Origin: Rhodococcus sp. ARC_M6
Lineage (GTDB): Bacteria; Actinomycetota; Actinomycetes; Mycobacteriales; Mycobacteriaceae
DNA length: 64,000 bases
Assembly (NCBI RefSeq): GCF_022810305.1
Contig: NZ_JALGQH010000005.1
Span: forward strand, 186,001 to 250,000
Direction of reading: 5' to 3'
Each line of letters starts with the position of its first letter. The first letter of the stretch is position 1. Shown here piece by piece: positions 25,576-37,968 of this stretch. The notes under the pieces were generated by a model. The model worked only from the letters and a program-made list of their open reading frames with translations, searched no databases and was not told the DNA's origin. The position numbers were made by a program, and so were the translations under genes.

Positions 25576-25665
25576 GGACGACAAGCAAAATGTACTGGTC
25601 AGTAGCTTCGGTTGGTCAAACCTCCACAACCGGACCTGCCTTCGAGGCGGCCCAACTGCTCTCGT

Positions 25666-25671
25666 TAAGCT
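25666..25671 (+). promoter_or_regulatory. -10 box TAAGCT, leaderless start of accD5
   Basis: TAAGCT ends 8 bases before the ATG at 25680. An upstream in-frame ATG at 25590 would be outside this transcript. Confidence 0.5.
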
Positions 25672-25679
25672 CACGACTC

Positions 25680-27320
25680 ATGACCACTGTCCAAGAGCCG
25701 AACGCGCCGGAGGCGGCGACCGCACCCGATATCCACACGACCGCGGGAAAGCTCGCGGATCTGCGGATTCGGCAAGCGCAGGCGCAGGCACCGAGCGGCG
25801 AAGCCGCCATCGACAAAGTCCACGCCAAAGGCAAGCTGACCGCCCGTGAGCGCATCACCGCACTCCTCGACGAAGGTTCGTTCGTCGAACTCGACCAATT
25901 GGCCCGTCACCGCTCGGTGAACTTCGGCCTCGCCGACAACCGTCCCGTCGGCGACGGCGTTGTCACCGGTTACGGCACCATCGACGGCCGCGACGTCTGC
26001 GTCTTCTCGCAGGACGCCACCGTCTTCGGTGGATCCCTCGGCGAAATCTACGGTGAGAAGATCGTCAAGGTCATGGACCTCGCGATCCGCACCGGCCGTC
26101 CGCTGGTCGGCATCAACGAAGGCGCCGGCGCCCGTATCCAGGAAGGCGTCGTCTCGCTCGGCCTGTACGGCGAGATCTTCCACCGCAACGTCCAGGCATC
26201 CGGCGTCATCCCGCAGATCTCCCTGATCATGGGCCCCGCTGCCGGCGGCCACGTCTACTCCCCCGCTCTCACCGACTTCGTCGTGATGGTCGACGAGACC
26301 TCGCAGATGTTCGTCACCGGTCCCGACGTCATCAAGACCGTCACCGGCGAAGACGTCACCATGGAAGACCTGGGCGGCGCACGCACCCACATGGTCAAGT
26401 CCGGTGTCGCTCACTACGTCGCTTCCGGCGAGCAGGATGCCCTCGACTACGTCAAGGACCTCCTGAGCTACCTGCCCAGCAACAACCAGGCCGCAGCACC
26501 GCGCGGCGAGATCACCGATCCGATCGTCGGATCCATCGAGGAAAGCCTCACCGCCGAGGACATCGAACTCGACACCCTGATCCCCGATTCGGCCAACCAG
26601 CCCTACGACATGCACGAGGTCATCCGTCGCATCCTCGATGACGACGAATTCCTCGAGGTCCAGGCCGAGCGCGCGATGAACATCATCGTCGGCTTCGGTC
26701 GCGTCGACGGCCGCAGCGTCGGCATCGTCGCGAACCAGCCCATGCAGTTCGCCGGTTGCCTCGATATCGATGCTTCCGAGAAGGCTGCGCGCTTCGTCCG
26801 TACCTGCGACGCGTTCAACGTCCCGATCATCACTCTCGTCGACGTCCCGGGCTTCCTGCCCGGTACCGAGCAGGAGTACAACGGCATCATCCGCCGCGGC
26901 GCGAAGTTGCTATACGCGTACGGCGAGGCCACGGTCGGCAAGATCACCGTCATCACTCGCAAGGCTTACGGCGGAGCGTACGACGTCATGGGCTCCAAGC
27001 ACATGGGCGCCGATCTCAACCTGGCGTGGCCGACCGCACAGATCGCCGTCATGGGCGCTTCGGGCGCTGTCGGATTCGTTTACCGCAAGCAGCTTCTCGA
27101 AGCCGCGAAGAACGGTGACGACGTCGACGCATTGCGTTTGAAGCTGCAGAACGAGTACGAGGACACCCTCGTCAACCCGTATGTCGCTGCCGAGCGCGGA
27201 TACGTCGACGCGGTCATCCCGCCGTCGCACACCCGTGGCCAGATCGTCGCCGCACTACGACTGCTCGAGCGTAAGTCTGTTTCCCTTCCGCCCAAGAAGC
27301 ATGGGAACATTCCCCTATGA
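25680..27320 (+). CDS. accD5: acyl-CoA carboxylase beta subunit AccD5 (propionyl-CoA type)
   Basis: Carboxyltransferase subunit that moves CO2 from biotin on AccA3 to propionyl- or acetyl-CoA, giving methylmalonyl- or malonyl-CoA for lipid synthesis. The 546-residue protein has both crotonase-like halves: N-terminal [20 protein letters not shown] and [12 protein letters not shown] with the oxyanion glycines, and C-terminal [22 protein letters not shown] and [22 protein letters not shown] (the second oxyanion hole, quoted in part). It is nearly identical in layout to M. tuberculosis AccD5. ATG 25680 matches the family start. Its stop overlaps accE5 (ATGA). Codon use is strongly biased, typical of high expression. 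Confidence 0.97.
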
Positions 27321-27658
27321 CCGCAGTTACCGAGGACATCGCGCGCGAAGATGTCGCAGTTGTAGAGGCTCAGTCCGCCAACGGTGTCGTCGTCGACGAA
27401 TCTGCGGCTGACGGCGTCCTCGCTGAACTGACGGAAACCCCGGTTTCCGACGCGTCCGTGATCAAGATCGTCAAGGGCTCGCCCACCGACGTCGAGATCG
27501 CGGCGCTGGTCAGTGTCCTTGCTGCTGCAGCCGGCGGCGGCTCCGCTCCGGCCGAGACCGTTCCCACGGAAACATGGGGCGATCCGACGCAGTTCCATCG
27601 CACGCGTGCGCCGTACTCTCCGTACGCATACCTGAACCCGTCGATGCGGCGCGGCTGA
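27317..27658 (+). CDS. accE5: acyl-CoA carboxylase epsilon subunit AccE5
   Basis: Small subunit that joins and stimulates the AccA3-AccD5 complex in actinobacteria. The 113-residue protein has a long acidic, variable N-terminus (about 1-45), then the conserved epsilon core [24 protein letters not shown] and a C-terminal tail [19 protein letters not shown]. It overlaps the accD5 stop by four bases. Confidence 0.93.
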
Positions 27659-27672: not shown

Positions 27673-28314
27673 GTGACTCAACTAGTTCTGGCTTCGGCAT
27701 CCCCGGCTCGCCTCGCAGTATTGCGGGCGGCCGGGGTTTTGCCTGTTGTACGTGTGTCCGGTGTCGACGAGGACAAGATCGCGGGTGAACTCGGTCCGGG
27801 TGCAGCCCCCGAAAAGGTGGTCACGGTCCTGGCCGAGGCCAAGGCAGCTGAGATCGTTCCCGGTTTGGCTGTCGACGGTTTGACCGATGTTGTTGTCGTC
27901 GGCTGTGATTCGATGCTTCTGATCGACGGCGAATTGCAGGGCAAGCCCGGCAGTGTCGATATCGCGCGTCACCGCTGGGCCGCTATGGCCGGCCGTAGTG
28001 CCACATTGCTCACCGGCCATTGTGTAATGCGGGTGATCGACGGAAACATCGTCCGCGTGGCATCCGATCACAGCGCCACCGTGGTGCATTTCGCCAATCC
28101 GTCGACAGCAGACCTCGAGGCTTATCTGGCCACCGGAGAACCACTGCAGGTTGCGGGCGCATTCACCCTGGACAGCCTGGGCGGATGGTTCATCGAGAAA
28201 ATCGAGGGCGACCCGTCGAGTGTCATTGGCATCGGATTACCCTTGGTACGAACACTTTTGGAGCGTGTCGGCGTTTCCGTTTCCGAACTGTGGCGGACTC
28301 AGAGCATCCTCTAG
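27673..28314 (+). CDS. maf: Maf family nucleoside triphosphate pyrophosphatase
   Basis: House-cleaning enzyme that hydrolyses non-canonical or methylated nucleotides (dTTP/UTP/m7GTP type) to the monophosphate. The 213-residue protein starts TQLVLASASPARLAVLRAAG, the Maf N-terminal signature, and has VVGCDSMLLIDGELQGKPG and the C-terminal DPSSVIGIGLPLVRTLL. The GTG start is supported by the -10 box 6 bases upstream. It ends with a four-base overlap against the convergent MFS gene. Confidence 0.93.
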   Translation: MTQLVLASASPARLAVLRAAGVLPVVRVSGVDEDKIAGELGPGAAPEKVVTVLAEAKAAEIVPGLAVDGLTDVVVVGCDSMLLIDGELQGKPGSVDIARHRWAAMAGRSATLLTGHCVMRVIDGNIVRVASDHSATVVHFANPSTADLEAYLATGEPLQVAGAFTLDSLGGWFIEKIEGDPSSVIGIGLPLVRTLLERVGVSVSELWRTQSIL

Positions 28315-30005
28315 GTTACGGAATTCTTCCTGGGCAGACCCAGCGATGCGAGCGCGATTGCCAGTGCAATTGCGGCAATGATCGTCAGCACGCTTCGCTG
28401 GGCCTGCAGGAAGGCTTCTCCCGCTGCCGATCTCGTCGAGGTGTAGGCAGTTTTGACTGCGATCTGGGCCGGGCCGCTCGCGGCAAGTGCGGAACCCTGG
28501 GAACGACAGTGCGGCGCCACGCTCATCGGCGATCCTGATTCGAGTTGGCTTGTCGCACAATCGACAAAGGTTTTCTCGGCAATATCCCGGATCCCCTGAT
28601 CGAGCCCCGCTGCCTCGAGTTCTGCGACATAGTTGCTTCGCTCGTCATGCACTGCCGCAGGCGCGTTGCCCGCAACCAGGGAAAAGAACACGACTCCGAT
28701 CAATGCCAGCCCGATCGAGCTACCGACCTGCTGCACCGTTGGCAGAAGTCCTGACACCGAACCGGCGTGTTCCGGCTGAACGCTCGCGAGGATGGCCGTC
28801 TGCAAGGGCGCGACAAAGAGTCCCAGCCCGGCGCCACCGATCAGCAGGGGTCCAGCGAGCGAGAGCCACGAAGGATCCGTTCCCACCCGCCCCAGAATTT
28901 CCCCCAGCGTCAATAACGAGCCCGCGAAAACGATCATCCCGAGAATCAGCACACGGTTGCCGAGAAGTTTGTACACAGCAGACGAAAAGACCGCAGCGAC
29001 GCCCATTCCCACGGCCCAGGGCAACGTCATGACACCGGCTCGAAGCGGCGAGAATCCGAACCCGAACTGCAATGTCAGACTGATGGTGAAGATCAACGAG
29101 GTCAGCGTTCCGAAGAACACGAACGCCAACGCGGCGCCGACCGCGAACGCTCGATCTCGGAACAGTTCGAGCCGTAGAACGGGATCCCCGCCGCGTTTGC
29201 CCAACCGGTATTCGTAGACGACAAACGCAACCGCCACGGGTATCGACGCAGCGATCATCAGCACCAGCGAAATCGGCCAACCTCTCGCGCGCCCTTCGGC
29301 GAGTGGGAAAATCAACAAGAACAGCGCCAGGGACGACAACACTGCGCCCACCAGATCCAAGGACCGCACGTGCTCCGACCGAGCGTCGGCCAGGTGGAAG
29401 TAACCCAGCACCAATGCCGCGATGCCGATCGGAATGTTGACGAAGAAGATCAGGCGCCAACCCCAGTCGAAGAGATTCCACTCGATGAGCAATCCGCCGA
29501 TCAGCGGACCACTGACGGTCGCAAGTCCGATGGTGGCGCCGTAGATTCCGAATACCCTCGGGTGCCGGTCTTTGGGAAAGAGCCCCGAGATGATCGCGAA
29601 GGTCTGCGCCGACATCGAACCGGCCGCCAAACCCTGCAGGCCACGGCACACGATGAGCATCACGGCGCTCTGCGCGAGTCCACAGAGCAGCGACGCCAGA
29701 ACGAAGACCGCCAGCGCAGTCAGGAAGACGCTACGACGCCCCCAGAGATCGCCCAGGCGCGCTGCGGTGATCAGTGAGCACGCAAACGCCAACACGTACA
29801 CGCTGACCATCAGCAATTGCGCAGACACACCCGCACCCAAGTCGACGGCGATACTCGGCAACGCGACATTGACAATTGTCGCGTCGAGCAGTTGCATGAA
29901 AGCCGCAGCAAGGCTGGTCGCAAGACCGAGCCAGGGTTTCAAGGTCGATTGCGCGAGAGTAGTCCGCCCAGAGTCAGCGATGACCGGGCCCGAGTTGGGA
30001 AGCAC
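28311..30005 (-). CDS. DHA2-family MFS drug/lipid exporter
   Basis: A 564-residue transporter with fourteen predicted membrane segments, as in EmrB/QacA-type proton antiporters. Family motifs: LLDATIVNVALPSIAVDLG in helix one, RLGDLWGRRSVFL (motif A) after helix two and GPLIGGLLIEW (motif C) in helix five. The loop before the last helix is long (about 440-535) and polar, a common DHA2 feature. GTG 30005 is supported by TACTGT 6 bases upstream. The gene is absent from this place in M. tuberculosis; it diverges from three PapA-like acyltransferases and could export their product, but a drug-efflux role is equally possible. Confidence 0.88.
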   Translation of the reverse strand: MLPNSGPVIADSGRTTLAQSTLKPWLGLATSLAAAFMQLLDATIVNVALPSIAVDLGAGVSAQLLMVSVYVLAFACSLITAARLGDLWGRRSVFLTALAVFVLASLLCGLAQSAVMLIVCRGLQGLAAGSMSAQTFAIISGLFPKDRHPRVFGIYGATIGLATVSGPLIGGLLIEWNLFDWGWRLIFFVNIPIGIAALVLGYFHLADARSEHVRSLDLVGAVLSSLALFLLIFPLAEGRARGWPISLVLMIAASIPVAVAFVVYEYRLGKRGGDPVLRLELFRDRAFAVGAALAFVFFGTLTSLIFTISLTLQFGFGFSPLRAGVMTLPWAVGMGVAAVFSSAVYKLLGNRVLILGMIVFAGSLLTLGEILGRVGTDPSWLSLAGPLLIGGAGLGLFVAPLQTAILASVQPEHAGSVSGLLPTVQQVGSSIGLALIGVVFFSLVAGNAPAAVHDERSNYVAELEAAGLDQGIRDIAEKTFVDCATSQLESGSPMSVAPHCRSQGSALAASGPAQIAVKTAYTSTRSAAGEAFLQAQRSVLTIIAAIALAIALASLGLPRKNSVT

Positions 30006-30011
30006 CTGGTC

Positions 30012-30017
30012 ACAGTA
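30012..30017 (-). promoter_or_regulatory. -10 box TACTGT, leaderless start of the DHA2 exporter
   Basis: TACTGT on the minus strand ends 6 bases before the GTG at 30005. Confidence 0.4.
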
Positions 30018-30165
30018 GTCGAGGTCCTTCGGCTCTGGCAGCGCGGCGAGTTCTGTGGTGCGTCGGTGTCGTCTCGGGCACTGCCCCGATTCATGCCTGT
30101 GGATACGTGATCGGTTTAGAAAGCCAAAGATCAGACAACCCGGTCCTCTAAATGGGATAGTTCTT

Positions 30166-30190
30166 CGTCTGCCTACAAACAGGACAGACG
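30166..30190 (+). promoter_or_regulatory. inverted repeat in the leader of the PapA-like operon
   Basis: CGTCTGCCT and AGGACAGACG pair with one bulged base around the loop ACAAAC. It lies 17 bases upstream of the ribosome binding site of the first acyltransferase gene and could be an operator or an mRNA hairpin. The rest of the 216-base gap between the exporter and this gene holds no ORF; a weaker TTTAGA/TCTAAA dyad lies at 30115-30152. Confidence 0.35.
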
Positions 30191-30207
30191 GTTATCACGA
30201 CATGCGC

Positions 30208-30212
30208 AGGAG
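30208..30212 (+). promoter_or_regulatory. ribosome binding site AGGAG of the first PapA-like gene
   Basis: AGGAG lies 9 bases before the ATG at 30222 and fixes that start. Confidence 0.6.
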
Positions 30213-30221
30213 TTTTTCTCG

Positions 30222-31709
30222 ATGGATCTGAACCTGATCACCCACTGGTGCCCGCAACCGGGGAGGGTAGTCGAATGGGGCGTCACCGCAACCAGCGCTG
30301 AACGCGCCGTCTCAGCACCGATCGATCGAGATCTACCACCCACAACGATGCAGGACCGTCATGTCCGACGTGCACGTGCCGCTGCCGAGAACGGCGACCC
30401 GCAGTCGCCGTGGATCGGAATAGCATTCGACTTCGAAGGCAACCTGGACCGCGAAGCGATGACACGTAGTCTGGCGAAGTACGTTCGCCGCCACGACACC
30501 CTGCACAGCTGGTTCTCGTTCGACGAGGCCACATCGGATCCGACGGATGTCACTTTTCCCGTGCGACGGCATGTGGTGCCGTCGGAGTCGATCGACCTCA
30601 CGTGCCGGGAAGGCCCGGAATTGAGCGATCCGGAGGACGTCCGCGCACTGGTCGCGCAGCGGTTCGCTTCGGAGACCAGCGCACTCGCTTGGCCGGCATT
30701 CGTGTTCGGCGCCGTCGAGCATGCGGCGACCGCAGGCAATGCACCGAGTTTCACGATGTTCCACGCGGTCGATCACGCACATACCGACCTGTATTCCATG
30801 GTCTTGATGTACTCGGAACTGCGCGCGCTGTATGCGGCCGACGTTGCCGGTGTCGACGCGGCGTTGCCGCCGGCAGGCAGCTACGCCGAAGTGGGCCGAC
30901 GTGAATTCGCCCGGGCCTCCGTCCTGACGATGGAATCCCCCGAGGTTCACCAATGGCTCGGATATTTGATGCGCAGCGGTGGTTCGTTTCCGGGATTCGC
31001 GCTGCCCCTCGGTGCTGACGACGCCCCGAAACCAGCCATCGGTTCACGGTTCGACCTGGCCGACAGCGCCGAATGCGAGAAATTCGGCGAGGTCTGCAAA
31101 GCCAACGGTTCGAACTTCATCGGTGGAATCTTCACCGCACTCGCCATCACCGAATTCGAACTGGCGGGACGGAGCAATTACATTGCACTGTCCCCCGTCA
31201 ACACACGAACCGAGAACGACGAGTCCTCCCAAGGTTGGTTCATCAACTTGATTCCGGTGGGAATCGACATCGGCGAGAAACGATCGTTCACCGCGTTGGC
31301 CGAAACTGGACAGCAGGCGTATCACCAGGGCAAGACACTTCTGGACGTATCGGTGCAGCAGGTCATCGACGTCGTTCTCGCCAGTATGGGCGACGCCGGC
31401 GCGTCGAGCGGATTGTCGAAGACCTTGACGCCGCCGCCGCTCGTCTCGTACATCGACGGCAGACGGACGCCCGACTCCGATAGTTATGTTGCCACCAACG
31501 CAACAGGAATTGTCGGTGGAAAGGAAACGCAGATCGCGTCCGTCTGGATCAACCGTGTACACGAGGGCGCCTGGATGGCGATCTCGCATCCGGATACCCC
31601 CACCGCGCACGAATCGGTCACACGGTTCGCCACGCATCTCTCCGGAGTAATCAAAGCTGTTGCAACACAGGGTGATTACTCCTTCTCGGACACATTCGGC
31701 GTCGTCTGA
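30222..31709 (+). CDS. PapA-like acyltransferase 1 (condensation-domain fold), degenerate active site
   Basis: A 495-residue stand-alone condensation-fold protein resembling the mycobacterial polyketide-associated acyltransferases (PapA1/PapA2), which acylate trehalose and other glycolipids. Shared marks are the N-terminal PGRVVEWGV, the RRHDTLHSWF segment about residue 90, GSNFIGGIFTALAI, NTRTENDESSQGWFINLIPVGID and the late WINR. The catalytic HxxxDG motif reads HAHTDL: His185 and Asp189 are kept but Gly is Leu190. It may therefore be slow, altered in substrate, or inactive with a structural role. AGGAG 9 bases upstream supports the start. It overlaps the next acyltransferase gene by one base (TGATG), so they are coupled. 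The acyl donor and acceptor are unknown. Confidence 0.8.
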   Translation: MDLNLITHWCPQPGRVVEWGVTATSAERAVSAPIDRDLPPTTMQDRHVRRARAAAENGDPQSPWIGIAFDFEGNLDREAMTRSLAKYVRRHDTLHSWFSFDEATSDPTDVTFPVRRHVVPSESIDLTCREGPELSDPEDVRALVAQRFASETSALAWPAFVFGAVEHAATAGNAPSFTMFHAVDHAHTDLYSMVLMYSELRALYAADVAGVDAALPPAGSYAEVGRREFARASVLTMESPEVHQWLGYLMRSGGSFPGFALPLGADDAPKPAIGSRFDLADSAECEKFGEVCKANGSNFIGGIFTALAITEFELAGRSNYIALSPVNTRTENDESSQGWFINLIPVGIDIGEKRSFTALAETGQQAYHQGKTLLDVSVQQVIDVVLASMGDAGASSGLSKTLTPPPLVSYIDGRRTPDSDSYVATNATGIVGGKETQIASVWINRVHEGAWMAISHPDTPTAHESVTRFATHLSGVIKAVATQGDYSFSDTFGVV

Positions 31710-33172
31710 TGCACGTAACGTCGATCGATGGATACGGTCTCGAACCTGGCGTCGTCACCGAATGGGCGATGCAGCCCATCGAGGGTTCGCTCACCGAATC
31801 ACTGGTGCCACCGTCGTACAACCAGCATTTTCATCTGGAGACTGCCCGCACCCACGGCGTCGGCCGAAGCGTCTGGATGGCGGCCGCTTTCGACCTCCCC
31901 GGCCAATTGAACCGGCCGGCGTTGGAAATCGCACTACGCCTGTTCATCAGCCGGCACGATACGCTGCACACAGGTTTCGAGATCGACGAATTTTCCACTG
32001 TCCGTTTGGATCTCAATGCCGATACCGCGATAATCATCACGTCGGACCCGCTGACAACAGTGACCACCGACGAGCTACGGCGCCATCTCAAGCAGCGATT
32101 CACACTGGTCTGTGATCCCTTGACCTTCCCCGCGTACACCTTTGCCACCGTAGAACGCGACGAGCACTACACCGTTCTGAGCGCCTTCGACCACACCCTG
32201 GTCGACGGCTATTCACTGGTCATCGCCCTCGGTGAACTTCGGCAGATCTACGAGGGACTGAACGCACTCCCCCGCCTCGACGATGCACAGGCCGTTGCCG
32301 AGTTGATGGACAAATTGGGTAATCCTGGAAGTTTCGTACGGTACTGCGAATTGGAAGCGGACGGCCTGGTACCCGTCGACAATGATCCGCGCATCCGGGA
32401 GTGGGAGCGATTCTACGAAATCTGCGGCGGAACGTCGCCGAGCTTCCCACTGGACCTCGGCGTAGTGGCCGGACAACCAGCGCCGCAAGGTGCTGACGTG
32501 CGTGTCCTACTCGATGCGGAGCGGACTGCCGATTTCGATGCGATATGCCTCGCGGCGGGCGGCAGTGTGTTCACGGGAATTCTCACGGCAATGGGGCTGA
32601 CAACTCAGGCAAGTACCGGCAAATCGGCACTGCCACTGCAGTTTCCGCTACACATCCGCAAGGATCCCCGGTGGGCCGACGCCATCGGATGGCTCACCAC
32701 AAGCGCACCGATCACCGTGCAGGTCACCCCGGACGCCGATTTCGGCGCTTCGCTGGCGCACACACACGCGTCATTCCGTGTTGCGCTCACACTCGAGGGC
32801 CTGACCATGGCGCAGGTTCGAGATGCTTTGGGCGGGAAGATCCGTCGTACTCGTACGGATGTTTTCATGGTGTCGTACATCGACTACCGCAAACTTCCCG
32901 GTACCGACGATCATGAACTGCTCAATGCTCACCACATCAGCAACGTCACCGTCGCGGACGACGCCCAGTTCTGGATCTCGCGAACCAATCGCGGTTTGTC
33001 ACTCCGATCGCGATTCCCGGATACCGGCGTAGCGAACGTCACTATGGTGAAATTCCTCACTGAACTCGGCCGAATTTTGCAGGACATCTGCGAGCGCGGT
33101 GTAACGCCGATCGGAAGTCTCACCGAACAATTGAGAGATTCGGTAGTCGAAGCAGGTACACCGCAGATCTAG
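31709..33172 (+). CDS. PapA-like acyltransferase 2 (condensation-domain fold)
   Basis: A 487-residue paralogue of its neighbour with an intact active site: FDHTLVDGYSLV gives H162-xxx-D166-G167. Other shared marks are PGVVTEWAM near the N-terminus, the SRHDTLHTGF segment, IGWLTTSAPITVQV (the DFGWG-like region) and a final FWISRTNRGLSLRSRFPD strand. It is predicted cytoplasmic and without a carrier-protein domain, so the donor is probably an acyl-CoA or a free-standing carrier. It is the second gene of a two-gene unit that ends at the hairpin at 33206-33233. Confidence 0.82.
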   Translation: MHVTSIDGYGLEPGVVTEWAMQPIEGSLTESLVPPSYNQHFHLETARTHGVGRSVWMAAAFDLPGQLNRPALEIALRLFISRHDTLHTGFEIDEFSTVRLDLNADTAIIITSDPLTTVTTDELRRHLKQRFTLVCDPLTFPAYTFATVERDEHYTVLSAFDHTLVDGYSLVIALGELRQIYEGLNALPRLDDAQAVAELMDKLGNPGSFVRYCELEADGLVPVDNDPRIREWERFYEICGGTSPSFPLDLGVVAGQPAPQGADVRVLLDAERTADFDAICLAAGGSVFTGILTAMGLTTQASTGKSALPLQFPLHIRKDPRWADAIGWLTTSAPITVQVTPDADFGASLAHTHASFRVALTLEGLTMAQVRDALGGKIRRTRTDVFMVSYIDYRKLPGTDDHELLNAHHISNVTVADDAQFWISRTNRGLSLRSRFPDTGVANVTMVKFLTELGRILQDICERGVTPIGSLTEQLRDSVVEAGTPQI

Positions 33173-33205
33173 TTCTTCGGCACTGGGTACGGGTGGGCCG
33201 AACTT

Positions 33206-33233
33206 GCTTCCAGCGCGCCTTCGCGCAGGAAGC
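33206..33233 (+). terminator. hairpin after the PapA-like pair
   Basis: Arms GCTTCCAGCGCG and CGCGCAGGAAGC pair over 11 bases with one A-A mismatch around the loop CCTT. No T-tract follows. It separates the acyltransferase pair from sseA and lies just before the sseA -10 box, so it could instead mark an operator. Confidence 0.5.
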
Positions 33234-33235
33234 GC

Positions 33236-33241
33236 CTAGAA
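33236..33241 (+). promoter_or_regulatory. -10 box TAGAAT of the sseA-sufE-papA unit
   Basis: TAGAAT lies 51 bases before the GTG at 33293; a transcript from here has a leader of about 45 bases that includes the AGGAG ribosome binding site. No convincing -35 box. Confidence 0.4.
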
Positions 33242-33280
33242 TCGATGCAGTCCGTCTTCGAACTGATCGATTCGCCTTAC

Positions 33281-33285
33281 AGGAG
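33281..33285 (+). promoter_or_regulatory. ribosome binding site AGGAG of sseA
   Basis: AGGAG lies 7 bases before the GTG at 33293, which decides that start over an in-frame ATG at 33245. Confidence 0.65.
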
Positions 33286-33292
33286 CCAGCCC

Positions 33293-34195
33293 GTGCCCGT
33301 TGCCCCCGACCCTTCGCCCGCGTTTGCCGAGTACAGCCATCCCGACCGGTTGGTCTCGAGCGAATGGCTGTCGGCAAACCTCGGTACGCCGGGACTGAAA
33401 GTGGTCGAGTCCGACGAGGATGTCCTGCTCTACGACATCGGGCACATTCCCGGCTCCGTGAAGATCGACTGGCACCTCGATCTCAACGATCCGGTCACGC
33501 GCGATTACATCGACGGCGAGGCCTTTGCAGACCTGATGAACCGCAAGGGCATCAGTCGTGACGACACCGTCGTCATCTACGGCGACAAGAGCAACTGGTG
33601 GGCCGCGTACGCACTGTGGGTGTTCACCTTGTTCGGACATGAGGACGTCCGCCTGCTCGACGGCGGCCGCGACGCCTGGATCGCCGAAAACCGCGACACC
33701 TCGTTCGACGTCCCGTATGCCACGTCCACCGACTATCCCGTGGTGGAGCGCAACGACGCCTCGATCCGCGCGTTCAAGGACGACGTTCTCTCACACCTCG
33801 GTACCGGTCCGCTGATCGACGTGCGGTCACCGCAGGAGTACACCGGCGAACGCACCCACATGCCTGACTACCCGGAGGAAGGCGCGTTGCGCGGCGGACA
33901 CATTCCCAGCGCACGCAGCATTCCTTGGGCAAAGGCCGCAGCACCGGACAGCCGTTTCCGCACTCGCGCAGAACTCGACGAGATCTACGGCGATCTGTCC
34001 CGCGAGGACAAGATCGTGGCGTACTGCCGCATCGGTGAGCGTTCGAGCCACACATGGTTCGTCTTGACTCACTTGCTCGGTTACCCCGACGTCCGCAACT
34101 ACGACGGCTCGTGGACCGAATGGGGCAATGCCGTTCGTGTCCCCATCGCTATCGGCGAAGAGCCCGGCGACGCTCCCCTCGAGGTTTCGGCATGA
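33293..34195 (+). CDS. sseA: thiosulfate/3-mercaptopyruvate sulfurtransferase SseA
   Basis: A two-domain rhodanese of 300 residues that moves sulfane sulfur to acceptors. The N-terminal inactive domain (about 10-135) has [21 protein letters not shown]; the C-terminal domain (about 155-285) has [13 protein letters not shown] and the active-site loop [15 protein letters not shown] with Cys245. It is the homologue of Rv3283. The GTG at 33293 has AGGAG 7 bases upstream and matches the family start. It overlaps the SufE-like gene by ATGA, which suggests sulfur is passed from SseA to the SufE-like protein. Confidence 0.95.
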
Positions 34196-34608
34196 GTTCT
34201 CTACCACCAGCATTGGCCGAGATCGTCGAGGATTTCGCGGCCGTCGGCACGTCCGACAAACTGACACTGCTCCTCGAATTCAGCCGCGAACTTCCGCCGT
34301 TACCTCCCGAGCTCGAGCAGAGCGCGATGGAGCCGGTTCCGGAATGCCAGTCACCGCTGTTCCTTTCGGTCGACGATTCCGATCGTGCCAAGGTACGGCT
34401 CTATTTCAGCGCTCCGGCCGAGGCCCCGACCACTCGTGGTTTCGCGTCGATCCTGGCGCAGGGCCTCGACGGGCACAGTGCCGACGAGATCCTCGCTGTT
34501 CCCGACGACTTCTATTCGGAACTCGGCCTGGCTGCAGCAGTCAGCCCGCTGCGACTGCGCGGCATGTCCGCAATGCTCGCTCGCATCAAGCGTCGCTTGC
34601 GGGGCTGA
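34192..34608 (+). CDS. SufE-like sulfur-acceptor protein
   Basis: A 138-residue SufE-family protein (Rv3284 position). SufE accepts persulfide sulfur on a single cysteine; here that is Cys52 in [13 protein letters not shown], the expected context. The C-terminal half has [19 protein letters not shown] and [14 protein letters not shown], both usual. No SufS/SufBCD gene lies nearby, so it more likely works with the overlapping SseA. The ATG overlaps the sseA stop; the next gene, a PapA-like acyltransferase, starts 7 bases after its own stop. Confidence 0.92.
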
Positions 34609-34615
34609 GAGAGAC

Positions 34616-36028
34616 ATGGAATTCACCGAACTTGCCGACTACGCGATTCCGAGCGGATCGCTGATCGAATGGTTACCGTGCGCAACCGGTCCGTGGACGC
34701 CTGATCCGCGGCCCGCGTCGTACATTCACGAGGCCCACCTGCAACGCTCTTCCGCCGGCTCCGGCGACAAGTCGTGGCTGGGTACAGCTTTCGAAATTCC
34801 CGGCTCCCTGGACGTCGACGCATTTCGAATTGCGTTGCGGCAGTGGATCGATCGCCATGAGGTCTTGCGCTCACATACGGCACTCGACACCTCGACCGGC
34901 GAGATCACTCGGCACACCGTGCCGATCGGCGGCATCGACATCGGAGTTGTCAACCACGGTTACGACGCGCCGAGCCAGGTCAACTTCGAGCACCTTCACA
35001 GACTGTTCGACGATTTTGCCTCCCCCCACAGTTGGCCGTCGTACGTGTTCGCAACACTCACGCCTCGTGGCGGCGACGGCCCGTCCACGGTGTTCTTTGC
35101 TGCGGACCACTCGATCATCGACGGCTTCTCGATCGTCCTGATCGCGCACGAGATCACTTCGCTGTACCGCGAAGCACTGACGGGCAATCCGGCCAACCTG
35201 TTCCCGGTCGGTAGTTACGTCGATTTCGGGACCCTCGAACGCGAACACATGTCCGACCAGGAAACCGAAGACGCAGCTCTCGAGGTCTGGAGCAAGGCGC
35301 TCGCCGACGGCGGCCTACCGCAGTTTCCACTGCCGATCGGAGATCGTGGCACCGAGTCCCAGAACGGACTGTCGATGTGGCTGCTCGACTCCGATCACTC
35401 CAAGCGCTTCAGTGCGCGCGCCGCTGAGGCCGGAGTCGGCTACTTCGCCGGTTTACTGGGCGCGCTTGCCGCCGTCGGCCATGACGTTGCCGGCGCCGAC
35501 CGCTTCCAGATCGTGACTCCGGTCCACACTCGCTCCGCCCAGGAATGGGCCGGCGCTCTCGGCTGGTTCGTGGGCTTGTGTCCGATCGATTTCGAGGTCG
35601 GCGACGACACCTCGTTCGACACTCTCGCGCGGCGAGCCGCCGAGTCCCTCACCGCGATGAAGCCTGCTGCGGCCATCCCCTTCGATCGGATCGGTGAGAA
35701 ACTCGGAACTCCGATCCGGCCACGATTCGTGGTGTCCTACATGGATGTTCGCTTTGTACCCGAGGCCGCGCAGTGGCCGGAGTGGAATGCGCGCGCGCTG
35801 CGCAGCAAGGCATTCACCCACGACGTGTACATCTGGATCAATCGCACACCGACGGGCCTCAATCTCGCCGTGCGATACCCCAACAACGACACCGCCAACG
35901 CTTCGGTGCACACCTATGTAGCTGCGCTGCGTCGCGCGATCGAGGCAGCTGCGACCGAAACCGACGACAACCCGCCCACAACGGACAGTTCGAGCTACTC
36001 GCCAGTAGCTTTTCAGACCGTTTCATGA
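34616..36028 (+). CDS. PapA-like acyltransferase 3 (condensation-domain fold)
   Basis: A 470-residue third paralogue of the acyltransferases upstream. The active motif is intact: AADHSIIDGFS with His165, Asp169 and Gly170. Other marks: IPSGSLIEWLPC near the N-terminus, RHEVLRSHTALD, VGYFAGLLGALAAV, GALGWFVGLCPIDFEV and VYIWINRTPTGLNLAVRYPNND (quoted in part). ATG 34616 follows GAGAGA and lies 7 bases past the SufE-like gene, so it is probably transcribed with sseA-sufE, an odd partnership. It is followed by accA3, whose complex supplies malonyl- and methylmalonyl-CoA. Substrates are unknown; a trehalose- or glycolipid-acylating role is inferred from PapA likeness. Confidence 0.82.
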   Translation: MEFTELADYAIPSGSLIEWLPCATGPWTPDPRPASYIHEAHLQRSSAGSGDKSWLGTAFEIPGSLDVDAFRIALRQWIDRHEVLRSHTALDTSTGEITRHTVPIGGIDIGVVNHGYDAPSQVNFEHLHRLFDDFASPHSWPSYVFATLTPRGGDGPSTVFFAADHSIIDGFSIVLIAHEITSLYREALTGNPANLFPVGSYVDFGTLEREHMSDQETEDAALEVWSKALADGGLPQFPLPIGDRGTESQNGLSMWLLDSDHSKRFSARAAEAGVGYFAGLLGALAAVGHDVAGADRFQIVTPVHTRSAQEWAGALGWFVGLCPIDFEVGDDTSFDTLARRAAESLTAMKPAAAIPFDRIGEKLGTPIRPRFVVSYMDVRFVPEAAQWPEWNARALRSKAFTHDVYIWINRTPTGLNLAVRYPNNDTANASVHTYVAALRRAIEAAATETDDNPPTTDSSSYSPVAFQTVS

Positions 36029-36161
36029 GTCGTACCGGGCTATTCCGATCCGGTTACAACCTGCATCGCAGCCATGAATACACTCCGAAGCGATGCCAGT
36101 AATCCACCGATGGTGAAATCCCAGAGGAATACACCGCGGAGATAAAGACAATGCGAACCAC

Positions 36162-36167
36162 AGGAGG
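36162..36167 (+). promoter_or_regulatory. ribosome binding site AGGAGG of accA3
   Basis: AGGAGG ends 4 bases before the GTG at 36172. An ATG at 36151 lies before it and is not supported. Confidence 0.6.
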
Positions 36168-36171
36168 CTCA

Positions 36172-37968
36172 GTGCCCAGTCATGCCAGCGCGCACATTAC
36201 GAAGGTGCTTGTCGCGAACCGCGGTGAGATCGCGGTACGGGTCATTCGGGCAGCCAAGGACGCCGGCTACGGCAGCGTCGCTGTCTACGCCGAACCCGAC
36301 GCCGACGCTCAGTTCGTAAAGCTCGCAGACGAGGCATTCGCCCTCGGTGGACAGACGTCCGCCGAGTCCTACCTCGTATTCGACAAGATCCTCGACGCCG
36401 CCCGTAAGTCCGGCGCCGACGCAATCCACCCCGGCTACGGCTTCCTCTCGGAGAACGCCGACTTCGCCCAGGCCGTCATCGACGCGAACCTGATCTGGAT
36501 CGGCCCGTCGCCGCAGTCCATCCGCGACCTCGGTGACAAGGTCACGGCCCGCCACATCGCCGAGCGCGCAAAGGCTCCGATGGCAGCCGGCACCAAGGAC
36601 CCCGTCAAGAACGCCGACGAGATCATCGCGTTCGCCAAGGAGTTCGGCGTTCCGGTCGCCATCAAGGCAGCTTTCGGCGGCGGTGGACGCGGCATGAAGG
36701 TCGCCCAGACCATCGAAGAAATCCCCGAACTGTTCGAGTCGGCTACTCGTGAGGCCATCGCAGCGTTCGGTCGCGGCGAGTGCTTCGTCGAGCAGTACCT
36801 CGACAAGGCACGCCACGTCGAAGCTCAGGTCATCGCCGACCAGCACGGCAACGTCGTCGTCGCGGGTACCCGTGACTGCTCACTGCAGCGTCGTTTCCAG
36901 AAGCTCGTCGAAGAAGCTCCGGCACCGTTCCTGACGGACGACCAGCGCGCACGTATCCACGCCTCCGCGAAGGCTATCTGCAAGGAAGCCGGCTACTACG
37001 GCGCCGGCACGGTCGAGTACCTGGTCCAGGGCGACACCGTCTCCTTCCTCGAGGTCAACACGCGCCTGCAGGTCGAGCACCCCGTCACCGAAGAGACCGC
37101 CGGTATCGACCTGGTGCGTCAGCAGTTCCTCATCGCCAACGGCGAAGAGCTTTCCATCAAGGAAGATCCCACCCCGCGTGGACACTCCTTCGAGTTCCGT
37201 ATCAACGGTGAAGACGCCGGCCGCGGCTTCATGCCGGCTCCGGGCCCCGTCACCGTTTACCGTGAGCCCGCGGGCCCCGGCGTGCGCGTCGACTCCGGCG
37301 TTGTTGCCGGCGACGTCATCGGCGGCCAGTTCGACTCCATGCTCGCCAAGCTCATCGTCACCGGTGCAACGCGTGAAGAAGCTCTGCAGCGTGCGTCGCG
37401 TGCGTTGGCCGAGTTCGAGATCGACGGCCTCGCAACGGTTCTGCCGTTCCACCGCCACATTGTCGAGAACCCGGCATTCGTCGGCGACGGCACTTCGTTC
37501 GATATCTACACCAAGTGGATCGAAACGGACTGGGAAAACACCATCGAGCCGTGGGCCGGCGCCGGCACCCCGGCAGACGACGAGGACGAGGCTCTGCCGC
37601 GTCAGAACGTCGTCGTCGAGGTCGGTGGACGTCGCGTCGAGGTTTCCCTGCCCGGTCAGTTCTCACTCGGTAACGGCGGCGGCGCACCTTCCGGTGCCAT
37701 CCGCAAGAAGCCGAAGGCACGCAAGCGCGGCGGCGCCGGCGCAGGCGCAGCATCCGGTGACGCCGTCACCGCTCCGATGCAGGGCACCGTCGTCAAGGTC
37801 GCTGTCATCGAAGGCCAGGAAGTTGCCGAAGGCGACCTCATCGCAGTCCTCGAGGCCATGAAGATGGAAAACCCGGTCAACGCACACAAGGCCGGCATCG
37901 TCACCGGTCTGACTGTCGAAGCCGGTGCTGCCATCACTCAGGGCACGGTTCTCGCAGAACTGAAGTAA
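36172..37968 (+). CDS. accA3: acyl-CoA carboxylase alpha subunit AccA3 (biotin carboxylase and carrier)
   Basis: Carboxylates its own biotin with ATP and bicarbonate and serves the AccD-type transferases. The 598-residue protein has the biotin carboxylase domain (about 8-455) with [18 protein letters not shown], the ATP loop [24 protein letters not shown] and [15 protein letters not shown], a linker rich in Ala, Lys and Arg, and a C-terminal biotinyl domain whose EAMKMENP motif carries the biotinylated Lys564. It matches AccA3 (Rv3285) throughout. Codon use is highly biased, as in accD5. A strong hairpin terminator follows its stop. Confidence 0.97.

Follow-up and report, generated by a model that had tools for sequence, protein, structure and literature searches.

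Here we describe a locus of Rhodococcus sp. ARC_M6 in which three genes for PapA-type acyltransferases, papAa, papAb and papAc, and one for a DHA2-type major facilitator superfamily (MFS) exporter are set among maf, sseA, sufE and accA3. The locus lies within a stretch of 64,000 nucleotides (positions 186,001 to 250,000 of contig NZ_JALGQH010000005.1; hereafter the window, whose numbering is used throughout) of a 6.34-Mb genome. The three proteins fall one each into three old, anciently distinct subfamilies, designated A, B and C, of which A includes an enzyme of known function, M. tuberculosis PapA2, while we found none such in B or C; the exporter is adjacent to the A-B pair and co-inherited with it. 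We consider it reasonably probable that the system performs an acyl-CoA-dependent, stepwise esterification, likely of trehalose or a trehalose glycoside, by three cytosolic PapA-type enzymes, the product being exported by the MFS protein. The original prediction, made from the letters of the window alone, was of a lineage-specific glycolipid or wax acylation and export system tied to an acyl-CoA carboxylase locus; it is partly supported.

The trehalose lipids of Rhodococcus are wanted biosurfactants, and PMC8396431 describes their genetic basis as still little understood, naming TlsA as the one acyltransferase implicated. If our reading is correct, it supplies a small candidate set of three acyltransferases and one exporter, in a genome where no other stand-alone PapA was found, and two sister genomes that lack A, B and the exporter through a single loss event would offer a ready natural comparison. 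On this reading the PapA2 lineage would also become one limb of a broader family with three, and the exchange of exporters between lineages would be open to testing.

Three PapA2-type acyltransferases

The products of papAa (30222-31709, + strand, 495 amino acids, motif DHAHTDL), papAb (31709-33172, +, 487 amino acids, DHTLVDG) and papAc (34616-36028, +, 470 amino acids, DHSIIDG) each match the Pfam Condensation family above its cut-off as their sole domain, with no carrier or adenylation domain. For all three, PapA2, which acylates trehalose-2-sulfate (PDB 6aef; PMC6996325), ranks highest among proteins of solved structure, at E=2.4e-51 for papAa, 2.7e-32 for papAb and 2.1e-39 for papAc. Profiles built from the subfamilies matched PapA2 over its whole length at 3.9e-88 (A), 8.3e-56 (B) and 1.3e-62 (C), and their next-best solved relatives followed at 2.7e-18, 1.6e-21 and 3.7e-29, respectively, with domains of non-ribosomal peptide synthetases (NRPS) far below PapA2. 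On this sequence evidence the three are identified as PapA-type acyltransferases.

The catalytic residues of PapA2 are H166 and D170, and S384 lies near the docked acceptor (PMC6996325). Both the His and the Asp are present in all three window proteins; across the subfamilies, near-copies included, the His of the DHxxxD motif is kept in 106/106 A, 78/78 B and 104/105 C rows (288/289 in total) and the second Asp in all 289, while the residue before the catalytic His is Asp in 289/289 rows as against Ala in PapA2. S384 aligns with an invariant Ser, namely S409 in alignment A3 (18 rows), S389 in A1 (17) and S374 in A2 (25). The spacing H-x3-D-x14-Y, a known PapA signature, is visible in the same alignments, and papAa shares with PapA2 the N-terminal start WxPxPGx4W. 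Assignment to the PapA5 type was rejected, the NCBIfam cut-off of 396 bits being far above the 21.1 bits of papAc, with papAa and papAb unlisted at E<=0.01; the latter two found only weak NRPS matches in NCBIfam.

The genome holds 66 Condensation matches. Apart from the three papA genes, 61 are in frames of at least 1808 amino acids and the remaining two share one frame of 1129 amino acids, on contig C22, that also has an AMP-binding domain. A search with papAa returned the three papA genes and one weak match in a frame of 4524 amino acids. By these searches papAa, papAb and papAc are the only stand-alone PapA-like genes of the genome, which is otherwise rich in NRPS, with Condensation matches in frames as long as 10,885 amino acids (contigs C127, C19, C8, C134, C41 and C14).

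Subfamilies A, B and C

For phylogeny, 280 papA rows, left after a length filter and the removal of six loci by hand, were reduced to 113 at 80% identity, and 12 more were dropped by hand; stretches L144-L152 entered the neighbour clustering and the MFS search and stand outside the papA table and the trees. A tree of 105 rows, with four NRPS domains of the same genome as a long-branch outgroup, recovered clades B, C and A with SH-like approximate likelihood ratio (SH-aLRT) supports of 99, 99 and 95, all three apart from the NRPS domains. In a more careful tree of 44 rows with no outgroup, the ultrafast bootstrap/SH-aLRT supports were 100/99 for A, 100/100 for B and 100/99 for C. The sampling of both trees excludes PapA1, PapA3, PapA4, TlsA and the wax ester synthases. 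papAa falls into clade A, papAb into B and papAc into C. PapA2 sits inside clade A together with all 11 rows, fetched by an A-type query, of genus g18, which is probably Mycobacterium, given the grouping of its PapA rows with M. tuberculosis PapA2. Descent from an NRPS remnant is disfavoured.

The papAa search, in which up to five first-look candidates per genome were scored, matched 63 of 298 genomes of the order, and searches with papAc and papAb were run on 53 of the 63, among them 23 of the 32 from g18. In those 23 genomes nothing clearly belonging to B or C was found; the best scores were 148.2 bits for papAc and 135.4 for papAb, mostly at places of A genes. We found no characterised member of B or C.

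Two observations concern further relatives. An additional B-type paralogue, 53-56% identical to papAb, occurs in genomes G002, G009, G013 and G021. A family of 441-454 amino acids with the motif SHMVADG lies beside triads of papA genes (L048:229-1551:-, L050:235-1596:-, L023:1234-2589:-, L139:2084-3406:- and L139:4877-6229:-) and is perhaps another acyltransferase family of the PapA superfamily; four members scanned (those of L048 and L023, the first of L139, and L144:14372-15763) had no Pfam match, and the family gave one weak PDB profile match, to the phthiocerol dimycocerosyl transferase 8s6l (E=0.005).

Pairing of the exporter with A and B

The exporter (P0001, 564 amino acids; 28311-30005, - strand) is divergent from papAa and matches Pfam MFS_1 (E=1.5e-44) and NCBIfam efflux_EmrB (235.4 bits, cut-off 230.2). 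In a sample of 28 genomes of the genus, an exporter ortholog of at least 67% identity was found in 24, and a papAb ortholog of at least 63% identity in the same 24, counting broken copies of the exporter in G012 (two pieces) and of papAb in G014; papAa was found in 22 of 25 genomes, in two frames in G020. Neither the exporter nor papAb has an ortholog in G003 and G004, both complete, or in G009 and G041, which are 74-75% complete.

Two sister genomes lack the same block (28320-33047, no strand, defined by blastn). The breakpoints are 28320/33047 in Rhodococcus sp. IEGM 1379, a contig matching G004 and the nearest named locus (97% over papAc), and 28322/33033 in G003. Because a 3' remnant of papAb remains as a scar at the junction in both, the absence is a deletion, one that spared papAc; for the same reason a recent gain of exporter, A and B in the window strain was rejected.

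Elsewhere, a related MFS gene (40-49% identity) adjoins nine of the ten single A genes fetched outside g18, the nine belonging to genera g2, g19 and g20 of families f1 and f2. The predicted link between exporter and acyltransferases is thus upheld. No related MFS gene was found at any of the 18 g18 places fetched, most with flanks of 1.5 kb. There, an MmpL-like open reading frame adjoins papA in four of the five longer stretches (L133-L136, with a Pfam check in L133), and a large frame with polyketide synthase (PKS) domains lies beside papA in L133, L134, L135 and L137, the four stretches scanned for such domains; by comparison, the scanned neighbours of the window papA genes include neither PKS nor MmpL.

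Arrangement of the locus in other genomes

Searching with papAc yielded 66 named loci, in which C is present by construction. The layout of the window (exporter-A-B-sseA-sufE-C) recurs in 13; C is alone at the locus in 18; a triad C'-A'-B' ahead of sseA is combined with C past sufE in 25, from Rhodococcoides, Williamsia and others; the triad lies away from the sseA-sufE/acc locus in seven, from R. qingshengii and its relatives and Nocardia; and three are cut or unclear. The order C-A-B was also found in family f14 (G155 and G301) and in genus g21 (G107).

A scan of the sseA-sufE neighbourhood gave a match in 29 of the 30 genomes searched. papAc lies past sseA-sufE in all ten genomes of g20, g21, g22 and g24, so that the place of C after sufE is common to several genera; no papA was found past sseA-sufE in g18 (9 genomes), g19 (7), g23 (2) or g25 (1). 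In the seven g19 genomes accA3 comes after sseA, and sufE was undetected. The compactness of this run that the original prediction ascribed to M. tuberculosis was tested only indirectly: in eight of the nine g18 genomes sufE leads on to accA3 without an intervening papA, and the ninth has neither accA3 nor papA within ~1 kb past sufE.

The view of an arrangement specific to one lineage is not supported: C occurs past sufE in several genera, and C-A-B triads occur in other genera and in another family. Nor did the proposed functional tie to AccA3-AccD5-AccE5 emerge: seven fetched triads lie away from these genes, and the sister genomes that lack exporter, A and B retain them. Shared expression with the acc genes is possible.

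Sugar genes near triads and published papA clusters

Several triads have glycosyltransferases as neighbours. A Williamsia triad (L050) adjoins EryCIII/GT28-like and GT2 glycosyltransferases and an ABC-2 exporter pair, while a Nocardia triad (L048) has an ABC-2 pair and an EryCIII/GT28-like glycosyltransferase beside it, and L023 an EryCIII-like glycosyltransferase. By clustering, members of the ABC-2 exporter ATPase family were found in 7 of the 24 loci that were compared. A search of the window genome, run without a positive control, detected no homolog of the triad-cluster glycosyltransferase. Nor did the window genome yield a match to PF09037, the trehalose 2-sulfotransferase family. This family is scattered through the genus (16 of 28 genomes): of the 24 genomes that carry both exporter and papAb it occurs in 15 and is absent from the other nine, and it is also present in G041. 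A search for SucT-like succinyltransferases gave four PF01757 places in the window genome, and at the one inspected, by a look that involved no family scan of the neighbours, treXYZ neighbours were not identified.

The products of Rhodococcus sp. I2R are succinoyl esters of two sugars, a disaccharide presumed to be trehalose and a trisaccharide interpreted as trehalose with an added glucose; a single contig of this strain carries four papA genes, starting at coordinates 137187, 138665, 140099 and 143010 and listed as putative acyltransferases (PMC8396431). Judged by coordinates, and with no sequence compared, these would fit a triad, a 1.5-kb gap holding sseA-sufE and a fourth papA, a layout seen among our 66 loci; the window has only A-B plus C and the divergent MFS gene. 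In the same paper TlsA of Rhodococcus sp. SD-74 is a trehalose lipid synthase, of which the I2R papA genes are the closest homologs there at ~30% similarity. In other papers, papA2 and papA3 were reported among the surfactant genes of R. opacus S8 (PMC9229178), and an NRPS cluster of a serpentinite isolate was described in which papA3 lies close to a glycosyltransferase gene (PMC13206832). In the available literature, which took in few subscription papers and included PMC8396431, PMC9229178, PMC6996325, PMC4183827 and PMC9959502, we found no account of three subfamilies or of the exporter pairing; in PMC9009618 and PMC8401914 "papA" occurs only in author names.

Proposed mechanism and alternatives

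We propose that, through the His and Asp of DHxxxD, each enzyme would transfer an acyl chain from an acyl-CoA donor onto a single sugar hydroxyl, most likely of trehalose, with subfamilies C, A and B serving different positions or steps. Since C stands alone at 18 of the 66 loci and in the whole genome G003, papAc would be the conserved core and probably the first or sole step; A and B, as an accessory pair, would attach additional chains, and the product would leave the cell through the DHA2 MFS protein. Acyl-CoA donors are suggested by the stand-alone nature of the enzymes and the precedent of PapA2. The data themselves show family membership, the three clades, the conserved motif and the co-inheritance and adjacency of exporter and acyltransferases; we infer acceptor, donors, step order and export alike, and trehalose lipids, the candidate product originally named, are upheld as the best one.

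Some findings weigh against this proposal. C occurs without A and B at those 18 loci and in the whole genomes G003 and G004, and the three enzymes are therefore no obligate unit; among the 18 loci, only for L001 (as G004) did the search cover the whole genome. A B paralogue (54%) occurs in G009 (75% complete), which has no MFS ortholog, L142 (g22) has a single A-labelled gene, on a very long branch, with no related MFS gene, and the NCBIfam name of the exporter is of a drug-efflux type. The acceptor is suggested by PapA2 and by strain I2R, where the link of gene to product is one of annotation.

An acceptor other than trehalose, such as a different glycoside, an oligosaccharide or a lipid alcohol, is somewhat unlikely. 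Trehalose would then be the mycobacterial case alone. PapA2, the nearest solved relative of B and C, is itself of A type, and, since the triads of L050 and L048 sit with glycosyltransferases, an acceptor may be built there; set against this are the I2R products, read as trehalose-based (PMC8396431), and the negative glycosyltransferase search of the window genome. A sulfolipid product is unlikely, and that papAa acylates trehalose-2-sulfate as PapA2 does is highly improbable: its closest solved relative is indeed that enzyme, but the sulfotransferase family was not found in the window genome and is missing from nine of the 24 genomes that have both exporter and papAb. We likewise doubt that the MFS protein is an unrelated drug efflux pump lying here by chance, with the acyltransferases alone forming a system. 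Its NCBIfam name, DHA2 efflux permease, would suit such a pump; its occurrence in exactly those 24 genomes, out of 28, that hold papAb, their joint loss in the sisters and the related MFS gene found, across two families, beside nine of the ten single A genes would not. That the enzymes are NRPS remnants or of wax-ester/DGAT type is barely credible, although all three match the Condensation family and two have weak NRPS matches in NCBIfam. The whole-length profile match to PapA2 is far above those to NRPS domains, the clades stand apart from the four NRPS domains of the genome and almost every row retains the motif; no direct comparison with wax ester synthases was made.

Stepwise esterification of trehalose followed by export has parallels in known systems. 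With PapA2 the window enzymes share a whole-length relationship, the catalytic His and Asp and the equivalent of S384; they differ in the Asp before the His, in an MFS neighbour, in a genome where no sulfotransferase was found and in the separate clades of B and C. The absence of a PF09037 match likewise sets the window genome apart from the pathway of sulfolipid SL-1. The PapA3 (DAT/PAT) locus also combines stepwise cytosolic esterification of trehalose, as proposed here, with a transporter in the pathway, but it has Pks3/4 and MmpL10 (PMC4183827), whereas the window has a DHA2 MFS protein and three enzymes, and no PKS was found; the PapA3 sequence stands outside this comparison. A wider and tentative view, about which we are rather evenly divided and slightly sceptical, is of an old C-A-B assembly line for sugar polyesters in the Mycobacteriales, of which the mycobacterial PapA2 type is the A limb alone, B and C have no characterised member that we could find, and the exporter (DHA2 MFS, ABC-2 or MmpL) was exchanged between lineages while the acyltransferases stayed.

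Gene calls and further observations

The predicted content and order of the locus, three PapA-like genes and a DHA2 exporter among maf, sseA, sufE and accA3, were confirmed. Gene calling by script was heuristic, and some open reading frames were missed or merged. Upstream lie accD5 (25590-27320, +; Pfam Carboxyl_trans), accE5 (27317-27658, +; ACC_epsilon) and maf (27673-28314, +; Maf), which overlaps the exporter gene tail to tail by 4 nucleotides. The stop of papAa and the start of papAb overlap by 1 nucleotide (TGATG). Then follow sseA (33245-34195, +), for a rhodanese-type sulfurtransferase (Rhodanese, E=4.9e-34) whose start may lie further in, and the sufE-like gene (34192-34608, +; SufE, E=6.7e-31). 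papAc starts at ATG 34616, 7 nucleotides past sufE; a longer frame from GTG 34385 was rejected because the N-terminus MEFTELADY encoded from ATG 34616 is also found in relatives. Last comes accA3 (36151-37968, +), for a biotin carboxylase and biotin carrier subunit (Pfam biotin carboxylase and Biotin_lipoyl domains). As the original prediction held, the enzymes lack carrier domains and no large PKS is near, since by the gene list the sole window gene above 900 amino acids encodes an Lhr helicase.

Among the compared loci, genomes of the R. qingshengii type carry a second C-A-B triad (L046:9001-13296 and L063:9001-13275), followed in L063 by MarR, OsmC and zinc-dehydrogenase genes. In L061 several genes are in pieces; here, as for papAa in G020 and the exporter in G012, the breaks may reflect sequencing error or real loss. 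L059, whose record bears the name Kitasatospora arboriphila, shares 95-96% identity over 14.77 kb with the Williamsia muralis loci L060 and L056 and is probably mislabelled or contaminated.

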